Of a stretch of 40,506 bases of DNA, positions 31,339-34,657 are shown one piece after another. The translations under genes and the position numbers were made by a program. Source of the DNA: an uncultured Clostridia bacterium (lineage in GTDB: Bacteria; Bacillota; Clostridia; Christensenellales; CAG-314); the NCBI GenBank assembly GCA_947629985.1, contig CANRFV010000013.1:1-40506 (forward strand), in the 5' to 3' direction. Below the pieces are notes generated by a model. That model searched no databases. It had not been told where the DNA came from and was given only the letters and a program-made list of their open reading frames with translations. Numbering within the stretch: position 1 is the stretch's first letter; every line of letters starts with the position of its first letter.

Positions 31339-31926
31339 ATGCCGAGATTATATTTCAAGTACGGAACAATGGGCAGCAGCAAGTCTGCGCAAGCGCTTAT
31401 GTGCAAATTCAACTACGAACAAAAGGGTATGAAAGTTTTGCTCGTCAAGCCTTCCACCGACACGCGCGACGACACGCAACAGCGAATGGTGCGTTCGCGC
31501 ATAGGTTTAACAGCCGAGTGCCAAATAATCACTCCCGAGCAAAGTTTTTACGACTTGTACAACAATTTCAAGGCGGCAAACGGCTGCGACTGTATTATTG
31601 TGGACGAAGCGCAGTTTTGCACCGCCGAGCAAATAGACCAATTAAAGCAACTTACGCGTTACGTATCGGTTTTGTGCTACGGTCTGCTCAAAGATTTCCG
31701 CTGTCATTTGTTTGAAGGCAGCAAGCGGCTGGTAGAGTTGGCTGATTCGTTGCAGGAAATCAAATCGGTGTGCCGATGCGGTCGCAAATCGTCTGTCAAC
31801 GCGCGCTTTGTAAACGGAAAATGCGTAGACGACGGACCCGTAGTGATGATCGGCGGCGACGAAAGTTACGAAAGTATGTGTTATTGGTGCTGGCAGGAAG
31901 AACTGCAAAAAGCCAAAAAATCCTGA
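31339..31926 (+). CDS. tdk: Thymidine kinase (type II)
   Basis: Phosphorylates thymidine with ATP for nucleotide salvage. The 195 residues from ATG 31339 begin as family members do (MPRLYFKYGTMGSSKS; P-loop at about 9-16). The Walker-B-like DEAQF motif, the thymidine-binding lasso region and the structural zinc site (CRCG and CYWCW) are present. An ATG at 31321 in the same frame would add 6 residues; AAGGA at 31324-31328 supports the later start, GAGAG the earlier one. A strong terminator follows. With the dCMP deaminase elsewhere in the window, both salvage and deamination routes to dTMP exist. Confidence 0.94.
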   Translation: MPRLYFKYGTMGSSKSAQALMCKFNYEQKGMKVLLVKPSTDTRDDTQQRMVRSRIGLTAECQIITPEQSFYDLYNNFKAANGCDCIIVDEAQFCTAEQIDQLKQLTRYVSVLCYGLLKDFRCHLFEGSKRLVELADSLQEIKSVCRCGRKSSVNARFVNGKCVDDGPVVMIGGDESYESMCYWCWQEELQKAKKS

Positions 31927-31942
31927 ATTATTTGTGATATTA

Positions 31943-31976
31943 TTGCCGAAACATATTTTTTCGGCAATTTTTTTTT
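31943..31976 (+). terminator. Intrinsic terminator after tdk
   Basis: TTGCCGAA 31943-31950 pairs with TTCGGCAA 31960-31967, followed by nine T. Confidence 0.92.
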
Positions 31977-32227
31977 ATTGTACAATTATTTCGCTACCCC
32001 CCCCGCCGCAAACCGTTTGCGCAAGCATACAATTTTTCTACTTACGCGGCAAATACTATTTGCCTGTCGGCAATGTTGCGCTCTCCGTAGGCAAATAACT
32101 CTTACTACGCGTTTACGCGTAAATTACCCTTTGGGTCGCAGGCGGAAAAATATTTGCCCAAGGGCAATGTTGCGCTGTTCGCGTGTGCAAACATTTCCGT
32201 TTTGGCGGAAAAATCGCGCAGTTAATG
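31977..32227. other. Intergenic region before the tandem RNA units
   Basis: No gene is supported. It contains a run of eight C (31997-32004), a hairpin GGCAAAT/ATTTGCC (about 32048-32064) and a 14-bp direct repeat GGCAATGTTGCGCT at 32069-32082 and 32163-32176. Confidence 0.5.
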
Positions 32228-32256
32228 TTGACATCGCGCAGACGTTGTTGTACAAT
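32228..32256 (+). promoter_or_regulatory. Sigma-A promoter of rod RNA 1
   Basis: TTGACA (32228-32233), 17-bp spacer, TACAAT (32251-32256). The start point falls at the base of the long hairpin beginning at 32260. Confidence 0.85.
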
Positions 32257-32259
32257 TTA

Positions 32260-32417
32260 GTTACCACATTATTACTTATATTACCAAAATGTACACATAA
32301 TCTATCGGTAGATTGATGTGTCTTTTCTCAGCAAGTACATTTTGGTGGGTAATAGTGTGGTAACTATCGGGACACGCGTCTACAAGTGTCGTTTCGGTAG
32401 AGACGGCACTTTTTTTG
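32260..32417 (+). ncRNA. Rod-like structured RNA 1 with its own promoter and terminator
   Basis: A predicted transcript of about 155 nt starts in a long rod: 32260-32275 pairs with 32349-32364 (16 bp, one G-U), then after a 7-nt bulge ACCAAAATGTAC 32283-32294 pairs with GTACATTTTGGT 32335-32346 (12 bp, perfect), then an apical hairpin with a TCGG loop (about 32295-32321) and a 13-nt one-sided bulge. It ends in a terminator (32384-32411 plus T). A competing hairpin GACAC 32371-32375 / GTGTC 32386-32390 would consume the 5' side of the terminator stem. The rod with a one-sided central bulge recalls 6S RNA, but this was not established. The next RNA unit, 130 bases on, has the same layout and nearly the same terminator. 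Confidence 0.7.
32384..32417 (+). terminator. Terminator of rod RNA 1
   Basis: AAGTGTCGTTTC/GAGACGGCACTT with GGTA loop, then T-tract. Nearly identical to the terminator at 32679-32709. Confidence 0.88.
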
Positions 32418-32513
32418 TTGTTAATTACGTCTGGTGCGCGCGGCGTGGCGTTTGCGTGCGGCAGGCGCAACTATCGGCAACTATATGCGCGGGGCAAAGT
32501 CAGGCTTTATTTG

Positions 32514-32542
32514 TTGACTTTTGTGTCGCCATATTGTACAAT
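32514..32542 (+). promoter_or_regulatory. Sigma-A promoter of rod RNA 2 and the LRR lipoprotein gene
   Basis: TTGACT (32514-32519), 17-bp spacer, TACAAT (32537-32542). It is the only promoter seen for the lipoprotein gene. Confidence 0.85.
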
Positions 32543-32547
32543 ACAAT

Positions 32548-32709
32548 TGCGACGCAGTTTAATATAATTTGCTTGGAACAAACTTTACTTAGGTAGAGTG
32601 TTCCTTATTCGCCATACAAATTTCCAGGCAAATTGTATTGTAAACTAGTGTCGCAGCTACGCGAATAGGCGCTTTACAGGTGCCGTTTCGCAAGAGACGG
32701 CACTTTTTT
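32548..32709 (+). promoter_or_regulatory. Rod-like leader RNA 2 with switchable terminator
   Basis: The transcript begins with a strand that pairs far downstream: TGCGAC 32548-32553 with GTCGCA 32650-32655, AGTTTA 32556-32561 with TAAACT 32641-32646, AATTTGC 32566-32572 with GCAAATT 32628-32634. Inside is a hairpin GGAAC...GTTCC (about 32575-32603). A terminator (32679-32709) stands just before the coding sequence, and GGCGC 32668-32672 / GTGCC 32680-32684 is a competing pair. As there is no room for a promoter between terminator and gene, the lipoprotein gene depends on read-through: an attenuator or riboswitch is inferred. Ligand or signal unknown. Confidence 0.68.
32679..32709 (+). terminator. 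Leader terminator before the LRR lipoprotein gene
   Basis: GTGCCGTTTC 32680-32689, GCAA loop, GAGACGGCAC 32694-32703, then six T. Confidence 0.88.
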
Positions 32710-32734
32710 ATTACATTACAAAAGGAGACGAATT

Positions 32735-34657
32735 ATGAAGAACTCACGCAAACTTATTTTGATCGTGTTGCTTGCGCTGTTGCTAATTGCGGCAATAACC
32801 GTTGCGGCTTGCACGCCCGACGATCCTACGCACCAACACACTTTTGCACAAGAGTGGAGCAGCAACCAATCCGAGCATTGGCACGCAGCCACTTGCGGAC
32901 ACGATGTAACGTCCGACCGCGCGGCGCACAATTTCGGCACGGACGACGTGTGCGATACCTGCGGCTACACCAAGGGGCAGGGCGGCGGTGGTAACCAAAG
33001 CGGCGGAGACACCCCTACGCACCAACATACATTTGCCGAACAGTGGAGCATTAGCGACGCCGAACATTGGCATGCCGCCACTTGTGATCACGATGTAACG
33101 GCAGATAACGCCGCACATACATTGGTAAATAACGTTTGTTCGGTATGCGGCTACCAAAACAATGTCAATTGGGACGACTTTACTTTCGAACGATCCGACG
33201 ACGGTTATATATTGACAAAATATAACGGTACAGCCGCGCACGTCAACATTCCCGATACCTACAACGACATGCCTGTTGTGGGTATAGGTAAAGAAGCCTT
33301 TTGTGAGTGTGAAAGTCTTATATCGGTAACAATTCCGAACAGAGTAAAAATTATAGATGGGAATAGCGACGAAGAAATCGGCGCTTTCGAATCCTGCTAT
33401 AATCTTACCACTGTAAATTTCGGTGCAAACAGCCAACTTGAAAGTATAGGTGATTTCGCTTTCATATTTTGCTACAGTCTTACATCAATAACTATACCCG
33501 ACAGCGTAACGAGTATAGGCGATAGCGCTTTCGGCGATTGCTTCCATCTTACATCAATAACCATACCAGATAGCGTAACAAGTATAGACGATTTGGCTTT
33601 TGCCGAGTGTTTCAAGATTACATCAATAATCATTCCAGATAGCGTAACAAGCATAGGCGAGGGAATTTTCTACTATTGTTTTTCTGCGGTAATTTACTGT
33701 GAAGCGTCGGAACAGCAGTCGGGTTGGAATTCGGTTTGGAATGTAGTTGATGATAACAGTTGTTGTCCTGTCATATGGAATTACAATCAAAATAACGTTG
33801 CCGATGACGGCTGTGTATACGATACTGTGGACGGTATACGCTATGGTTTCAAGGATAGCCAAGCAAAAGTATATGGCAACAATTATTCCGGCGATGTTAC
33901 AATACCGTCAACTGTTGAATATCAAGATAAAGATTATACAGTAAAAAGTATAAGTGATGGCGCTTTCGTATATTGCCTTGATTTGACGTCGGTAATCATT
34001 CCCGACGGAATAATCGACATTGGTGGTTACGCCTTCGGCAAGTGCAACAGTCTTACATCGATAACCATTCCCAATAGCGTAAAAACGATTGGCGAAGTCG
34101 CTTTTGCCGATTGTGAAAATTTGCAAAGCATTTATTACAACGGTTCAATTGCCGATTGGTGCGAAGTTGACAGCGTAGATTCTCTGATATATGACACAGA
34201 CAATTTCTACATAAAGAAAAACGGCTTATGGCAAAAACTTACCGATATTACACATCTTGAAATTCCCGACGGCGTTACTAAAATAGGCGACTGCGCTTTT
34301 GCCGGTTGTAGCAATCTTACATCAATCACTATTCCTGATAGCGTAACAAGTATAGGCAATGGCGCTTTCAGGGGTTGCTACAGTCTTACATCAATAACCA
34401 TACCGGACAGCGTAACAAGTATTGGCGATTACGCTTTCTACAATTGCTACAGTCTTACATCAATATTTATTCCTAGACGTGTTACGAATATTGGTTGGAA
34501 TGCCTTTAGGAGTTGCGACAATCTTACCATTTACGTTGAAGTAGCAGAAAAACCATCAGGTTGGGATTCCGATTGGAATTATTCATTTTCATCAAACGGT
34601 GATATTTATTGCCCCGTTGTTTGGGGTGCTACGCGCCAGGACGCCGAACAACACTGA
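32735..34657 (+). CDS. BspA-type leucine-rich-repeat surface lipoprotein
   Basis: A basic, hydrophobic signal peptide ends in lipobox VAAC with the lipidated Cys at residue 26, so the protein should be anchored on the outer face of the membrane. Two copies of a His/Cys-rich module follow (about 34-78 and 97-140: HQHTFA, EHWHAATC, CxxCGY), which may bind metal. The rest is BspA-like LRR_5 repeats of about 23 residues (ITIPDSVTSIGDSAF-type) in two blocks, with nearly identical 69-bp DNA units. A binding or adhesion role is inferred. AAAGGAG precedes ATG 32735. Expression should depend on read-through of leader RNA 2. The repeats make slippage or recombination likely. Confidence 0.9.
   Translation: MKNSRKLILIVLLALLLIAAITVAACTPDDPTHQHTFAQEWSSNQSEHWHAATCGHDVTSDRAAHNFGTDDVCDTCGYTKGQGGGGNQSGGDTPTHQHTFAEQWSISDAEHWHAATCDHDVTADNAAHTLVNNVCSVCGYQNNVNWDDFTFERSDDGYILTKYNGTAAHVNIPDTYNDMPVVGIGKEAFCECESLISVTIPNRVKIIDGNSDEEIGAFESCYNLTTVNFGANSQLESIGDFAFIFCYSLTSITIPDSVTSIGDSAFGDCFHLTSITIPDSVTSIDDLAFAECFKITSIIIPDSVTSIGEGIFYYCFSAVIYCEASEQQSGWNSVWNVVDDNSCCPVIWNYNQNNVADDGCVYDTVDGIRYGFKDSQAKVYGNNYSGDVTIPSTVEYQDKDYTVKSISDGAFVYCLDLTSVIIPDGIIDIGGYAFGKCNSLTSITIPNSVKTIGEVAFADCENLQSIYYNGSIADWCEVDSVDSLIYDTDNFYIKKNGLWQKLTDITHLEIPDGVTKIGDCAFAGCSNLTSITIPDSVTSIGNGAFRGCYSLTSITIPDSVTSIGDYAFYNCYSLTSIFIPRRVTNIGWNAFRSCDNLTIYVEVAEKPSGWDSDWNYSFSSNGDIYCPVVWGATRQDAEQH

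Follow-up and report, generated by a model that had tools for sequence, protein, structure and literature searches.

The window analyzed here is a 40,506-nucleotide stretch of DNA from an uncultured Clostridia bacterium (contig CANRFV010000013.1). Two consecutive units, each consisting of a promoter, a rod-shaped RNA, and an intrinsic terminator, occupy positions 32228–32709 of the plus strand (Table 1). This layout had been proposed in an earlier reading made from the letters alone (the sequence-only reading), and both promoters with their 17-bp spacers as well as both terminators were recovered. The long rods described in that reading are borne out by folding: the transcript of unit 1 reaches −64.6 kcal/mol (z −7.9) and that of unit 2 −67.1 kcal/mol (z −8.3), with 0 of 200 shuffles as good in either case. 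Both terminators, noted before as almost identical, sit inside a 35-nt direct repeat of 89% identity. The end of unit 2 is separated by 25 nt from the ATG of a gene for a lipoprotein with BspA-type leucine-rich repeats (LRR_5). These 25 nt contain a Shine–Dalgarno sequence, and a plus-strand promoter scan found zero matches in them, in agreement with the ribosome site and the missing promoter of the earlier reading.

Table 1. Coordinates of the two leader units and of the gene behind them (positions in the window)
Feature	Position	Strand	Remarks
Unit 1 promoter	32228..32256	+	TTGACA-17-TACAAT; −35 32228-32233, −10 32251-32256; 11/12 matches (promoter scan)
Unit 1 predicted +1	near 32263	+	first base of P1; placed from promoter position
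Unit 1 (subtype A) rod	32263..32361	+	P1 32263-32275 with 32349-32361
Unit 1 one-sided bulge	32276-32282	+	between P1 and P2
Unit 1 P2	32283-32294 with 32335-32346	+	part of rod
Unit 1 apical hairpin P3	32295-32304 / 32309-32319	+	loop UCGG 32305-32308
Unit 1 strand L2	32320-32334	+	3′ of P3
Unit 1 switch strand J+S	32362..32383	+	J 32362-32370, S 32371-32383
Unit 1 PK1		+	S with 3′ strand of P3
Unit 1 PK2		+	J with terminator loop near 32391-32400
Unit 1 intrinsic terminator	32384..32416	+	32384-32411 in the terminator scan
Unit 2 promoter	32514..32542	+	TTGACT-17-TACAAT; −35 32514-32519, −10 32537-32542; 10/12 matches
Unit 2 predicted +1	near 32549	+	placed from promoter position
Unit 2 (subtype B) rod	32549..32654	+	P1 32549-32564 with 32639-32654
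Unit 2 P2	about 32565-32578 with 32622-32637	+	
Unit 2 P3	32583-32598	+	
Unit 2 L2	32603-32612	+	
Unit 2 switch strand J+S	32655..32677	+	J 32655-32669, S 32670-32677
Unit 2 PK1 (candidate)		+	GCGAATAGG with L2; CTTTAC with apical GTAGAG; read from sequence; homologues
Unit 2 PK2 (candidate)		+	GCGAA with terminator loop TTCGC; read from sequence; homologues
Unit 2 intrinsic terminator	32678..32709	+	32678-32705 in the terminator scan
Shine–Dalgarno AGGAGA	32723..32728	+	
Lipoprotein, 640 aa	32735..34657	+	BspA-type LRR_5 repeats (PF13306, E 1.6e-86); probably the controlled gene

Both window units are members of one structured leader-RNA class that lacks an Rfam match. A DNA search located six places in the genome of origin, the window among them, and matches in 15 of 41 genomes (again including the own genome), all of one genus. 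Applying nhmmer to 58 loci gave 56 distinct units, of which 39 resemble unit 1 (subtype A), 13 resemble unit 2 (subtype B), and 4 are of other kinds. A covariance model built from 37 subtype-A units (R1) matched 36 of 297 genomes of the order, many with weak E-values; inspected singly, these matches mostly show the same architecture in different letters. A covariance search of related Clostridia had been suggested in the sequence-only reading. With the second model (R2), built from 44 diverse units, 86 of the 248 genomes searched in the order were matched, in 40 of 115 genera, and of 391 genomes sampled from the class likewise 86, in 53 of 223 genera. Among 398 genomes drawn from the phylum, some of them same-class genomes without a match, only the own genome was hit. 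Since strict filters were applied in searching the class and the phylum, and no more than seven candidates were scored in each genome, weak copies can be missed; when more candidates were scored in 16 chosen carriers, 4–21 matches per genome were found.

A scan for the subtype A pattern returned 48 stretches, 33 in metagenome-assembled genomes (MAGs) of Clostridia or Clostridiales and 15 in other bacteria; 31 of the 33 came from MAGs named "Lapin", by inference from rabbit. Subtype A lies in uncultured Clostridia. Two exact patterns gave 0 stretches in viral contigs. Several units were set aside in the analyses below: L049 (broken 3′ half) was removed before set A1 and L054 kept out of it; L050, L053, and the partial L119 are absent from later sets; L097:157-285 and two L120 units were excluded from the statistics (poor decomposition); and L114 and L125, which lack the apical part, were excluded from the length correlation, the helix sums, the 76-unit shared-base test, and the counts at the P3 loop and the predicted +1.

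From 5′ to 3′, members of the class are ordered as P1, a one-sided bulge, P2, P3, L2, P2′, P1′, J, S, and the terminator. The promoter is placed with precision: a −10 box ends 4–6 nt upstream of the unit in 120 of 124 non-redundant units (other offsets, 26–38 of 124), and in 110 of those 120 a −35 box with at least 4 of 6 matches lies at 16–18 nt (17.9 such units expected from shuffles). At the predicted +1, which is the third base of the unit, 74 of 78 units have a purine. Given this purine and the fixed promoter, the RNA is expected to start at the outermost base pair of P1. A GG lies close to the P3 loop in 64 of 78 units (31% of control windows); it may serve as a lead, and only as that, towards a ligand site.

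P1, PK1, and the terminator are supported by covariation. In the 37 subtype-A units, P1 is paired in 97.3% of cells, with 5 of 13 pairs changed on both sides; PK1, the pairing of the P3′ strand with S, is 98.9 and 95.0% paired with 4 of 12 pairs double-changed; and the terminator is 98.3% paired with 3 of 8 pairs double-changed. All three exceed both shuffles and slid controls, and the structure as a whole shows 95 double-change cells versus 35 after shuffling. The class set (53 units, 51 distinct) shows double changes in 9 of 12 pairs of P1, 9 of 9 of the terminator, and 6 of 10 of PK1 (24 of 31 in total), with 221 double-change cells in the three helices together versus 73 shuffled. The sequence-only reading had named a lack of compensatory changes among homologues as evidence against its proposal; the opposite was found in both the subtype A and the class sets.

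P3 and PK1 draw on the same strand (P3′). In the class set, 6 of 9 pairs of P3 are double-changed. In subtype A, P3 is 85.6% paired with 23 double-change cells versus 11 shuffled; its number of double-change pairs, three, does not rise above shuffles (380 of 500 reach it). PK1, with a median length of 16 bp, connects the tip of the long rod to the rod base. It was also assessed without an alignment, in sets of 35 of 91 and 32 of 53 units retained as non-redundant; own partners beat permuted ones in both (0 of 5000), a count that is unaffected by two short units without a duplex, which distort the mean PK1 energy of the 35-unit set. PK1 seemingly requires the rod to fold back; a correlation of P1/P2 lengths gave no support for this (Spearman −0.45 for all 78 units and −0.24 for 46 filtered ones).

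PK2, in which J pairs with the terminator loop, shows 99.1% pairing in subtype A and hardly varies there, with double changes in 0 of 6 pairs. Column by column, PK2 is not above shuffles in the class set (63.2% paired versus 62.1% shuffled; 56 of 500 shuffles reach it), which we attribute to loop insertions and deletions. In alignment-free tests of PK2, the own partners reached −14.6 kcal/mol versus −8.9 for permuted ones in the 35-unit set, and −11.0 versus −7.8 in the 32 class units (0 of 5000 each). One unit, L102, has no real PK2 (−1.9 kcal/mol).

Does the same stretch of J+S serve both pairings? With L2 placed by model alignment and the J+S positions (JS) numbered after P1′, JS 6–10 of 39 non-redundant diverse units fit both their own L2 and their own terminator loop better than permuted partners (0 of 5000 each), whereas JS 1–5 fit the loop (0 of 5000) and not L2 (688 of 5000). 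Among the 32 class units, JS 6–10 fit the own terminator loop (3 of 5000), and their fit to the own L2 was not significant (466 of 5000). An earlier version of the test, covering 76 units, reached 0 of 5000 for L2 as well as for the loop, but leans towards own partners because each unit's own PK1 placed the L2 window; in its 34 D units JS 1–5 tend to fit L2 as well (110 of 5000), and in its 11 A/B units none of four tests was significant. PK1 and PK2 compete for 3–12 nt (median 7) in each of the 76 units, a figure inflated by the search windows. When the PK2 bases are kept unpaired, the terminator hairpin weakens from a median of −15.8 to −3.9 kcal/mol. Taken as sums of separate helices rather than as a pseudoknot calculation, the energies place PK1 plus the full terminator a median of 6.7 kcal/mol below P3 plus PK2, and favor the former in 63 of 76 units. 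Conserved alternative pairings that involve the terminator, as looked for in an attenuator, are found in these data, with the PK2 columns and the L2 fit of the class set on the other side.

A different switch hairpin, GACAC/GTGTC overlapping the terminator, had been suggested by the sequence-only reading. Its letters exist in unit 1, but in the 37 subtype-A homologues the pairing is rarer than in 500 of 500 shuffles and shows no double change. It was rejected in this role; the switch-like pairings are those of S with the apical P3 strand and of J with the terminator loop.

Many copies of the leader stand 20–30 nt 5′ of start codons. A frame led by a Shine–Dalgarno sequence begins within 260 nt of 31 of 38 A, 12 of 13 B, 28 of 43 D, and 45 of 53 C units, and was not found within that distance for 7, 1, 15, and 8 units, respectively. 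Where such a frame was found, the median distance from unit end to start is 33 (A), 28.5 (B), 25 (D), and about 21 nt (C). A promoter and terminator followed by a promoterless gene are seen in the window by scan and in relatives by distance only. Pfam domains were assigned in a run on 94 of 98 non-redundant downstream proteins. LRR_5 of the BspA type occurs in 30 of the 94, and Zn_Ribbon_1 in 14 of the first 60 proteins and in one of the remaining 34; further domains are Listeria-Bacteroides repeats, collagen repeats, the copper-amine-oxidase N-terminal domain, GDSL lipase, and YspA SLOG. Judged by these domains, the genes behind the leaders resemble a collection of surface and accessory functions more than a metabolic pathway.

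Seven distinct second promoters were seen just past the leader terminator in relatives (L139, L141, L148, L159, L168, L123, and L037). Each has a run of 8–10 G in its −35/−10 spacer (15–18 nt), and they precede lipoprotein-like or zinc-ribbon-like frames. By their sequence, these poly-G promoters are candidates for slipped-strand phase-variable promoters stacked behind the leader. At L120:1982-3138, three successive leader units each lie directly 5′ of a frame starting like a "CFIGHR" SLOG-type protein, so that gene and leader seem to have been duplicated together.

Tandem arrangements recur. In the 16 carriers, at least 10 same-strand neighbor pairs were counted by eye, 49–151 nt apart, five of them at 49–50 nt, and the gaps between the tandem units in L224 and L233 contain promoter-like sequence, also judged by eye. 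Within the own genome, a third, differently lettered unit (1838-2002) lies between an A and a B unit at L003:1551-2213, forming a triple array. Compact units of ∼95 nt without the apical rod (L125:2011-2105 and L114:2041-2136) keep J, S, and the terminator, and are either decayed copies or minimal forms. The unit at L100:1977-2135 is located 185 nt 3′ of a tmRNA gene on the same strand.

In the window, unit 2 had been proposed as an attenuator or riboswitch of the lipoprotein gene, and the evidence supports an attenuator-type leader there. Unit 1 had been taken for a free small RNA or a duplicated sensor; the fact that subtype A directly precedes genes elsewhere suggests a duplicated device of the same class. 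It might also be a free small RNA, since a terminator of its own ends unit 1 and transcription of unit 2 has a separate promoter. As unit 2 starts its own transcript, unit 1 adds little to control in cis, and a purely cis-acting role hardly accounts for the promoter and terminator that unit 1 carries. The RNA of unit 1 may act in trans, or the pair may respond to two inputs.

We consider it fairly probable that each unit is a cis-acting strand-exchange transcription attenuator with its own promoter, OFF by default. Transcription would start on the first base pair of P1, as predicted from the promoter position. P1 and P2 would then form the rod, whose tip folds into the local hairpin P3, as supported by covariation. 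Since S can pair with a strand of P3, it could, once J+S has emerged, invade this hairpin and form PK1; the single-stranded L2 is the probable toehold. J, including bases that PK1 needs, can pair with the loop of the terminator and the upper part of its stem (PK2), as supported by permutation and not by aligned columns in the class-wide set. With PK1 formed, J would be held, and the terminator could zip fully and stop transcription, an outcome favored by the rough helix energies. A signal that keeps P3 shut, perhaps at the GG-rich loop, would instead let J unzip the top of the terminator, so that the gene is read; this signal could be a metabolite, a second messenger, a protein, or an RNA. Unit 2 would accordingly gate the LRR lipoprotein gene, and unit 1 would be a second copy that has diverged further; transcripts reading through it would still have to get past unit 2.

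A wider interpretation is put forward tentatively, with the case for and against it nearly balanced: the units may belong to an unrecognized family of RNAs that sense a signal, spread throughout the class Clostridia and present in up to ∼20 copies in a genome. In these RNAs, the apical hairpin would be invaded by a toehold strand, and the same bases would compete for the terminator loop. Such a family might act as a common, signal-tuned gate for a regulon of surface adhesin and accessory genes, in which tandem pairs would integrate two inputs. If so, a large set of adhesin and orphan genes would be under one shared, searchable signal, and toehold strand exchange would occur naturally in a system whose competing helices are mostly accessible by comparing sequences.

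The terminated RNA of ∼155 nt might instead act as a small RNA in trans, the downstream gene being reached only by leakage or from other promoters. An own promoter and terminator, a 5′ end predicted to be paired from +1, and the seven poly-G promoters past the terminator in relatives would suit such an RNA, as would tandem units that each seem to have their own promoter, since an upstream unit then adds little in cis. However, where a frame is found, the Shine–Dalgarno sequence and start codon mostly follow ∼20–30 nt past the unit, which leaves little room for a promoter, and bases with two alternative partners, as seen in the diverse set, are the mark of a switch; we regard a trans-acting RNA as unlikely. 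Somewhat less plausible still is that PK1, PK2, and the lower terminator stem form one compact, pseudoknotted ligand-binding fold, with the terminator as part of the aptamer and the ligand favoring termination. PK2 does pair with the terminator loop itself, S ends adjoining the terminator stem, and in HMP-PP (thiS) riboswitches the aptamer is embedded in a terminator (PMC6478431). Yet a joint fold conflicts with the competition of PK1 and PK2 for the same bases in 76 of 76 units (again with windows that inflate the overlap) and with the loss of terminator stability once the PK2 bases are withheld.

The copy number in the 16 chosen carriers and the tandem copies could also be explained by a mobile or selfish hairpin element that has spread in front of genes. 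This we hold to be very improbable, as promoter spacers, rods, and flanks vary while the pairing is kept, the −10 box stays at a fixed distance in 120 of 124 non-redundant units, and the class is present in 53 of the 223 genera drawn. The assignment to 6S RNA, the main alternative of the sequence-only reading, or to another described family recalls the rod with its one-sided bulge and closed ends; it is hardly credible in view of the searches described next.

On the units of the window, and likewise on those of 20 order loci and 20 class loci, every family of Rfam 15 stayed below its gathering score. The sequence-only reading, too, had recognized no known riboswitch class. Under permissive settings, the best matches were sub-threshold: GibS over a window unit with 21.1 bits (cut-off 115) and, among the class loci, Phe_leader on L192 with 32.9 (cut-off 55). 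T-box and c-di-GMP riboswitch families are absent from the Rfam matches in the window and in the order and class loci. 6S RNA gave no gathering-score match in the window, nor any match at E up to 10 over 31900-32800. 6S RNA is a rod-shaped RNA with paired ends, and the leader class shares this shape; in contrast to 6S RNA, its terminator is tied into the fold by PK2, it is present many times in a genome, and copies are located 5′ of genes. The leader RNA is not described in the literature titles, abstract openings, and passages of RNA-discovery papers that were covered; their supplements, outside this scope, may hold an unnamed candidate.

In its proposed mode of action, the leader class resembles terminator-type riboswitches and strand-exchange attenuators, but it falls into none of the families tested. 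We do not call it a riboswitch, a term that presupposes direct binding of a small molecule. In the HMP-PP (thiS motif) riboswitch, the conserved terminator loop enters another pairing, possibly a pseudoknot, by which the terminator is opened; this riboswitch is unusually small, is tied to thiamin genes, and stands in tandem behind a TPP riboswitch in about 30% of cases (PMC6478431). The terminator loop takes part in an alternative pairing in both systems. Unlike that riboswitch, the leader class has a rod of ∼155 nt, an own promoter fixed at +1, and a proposed strand invasion of an apical hairpin, and often precedes surface or accessory genes. The yxjA purine riboswitch, whose ligand is guanine, resembles the model proposed for the leader class in its cotranscriptional strand exchange, with an intermediate helix competing with both an upstream helix and the terminator, whereas its abstract names neither a long rod nor a terminator-loop pseudoknot (PMC9756952). 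In genomic setting, the leader class is similar to the c-di-GMP riboswitch that precedes the adhesin gene cbpA (PMC7423583): in both, a leader RNA stands before a gene for a surface adhesin.
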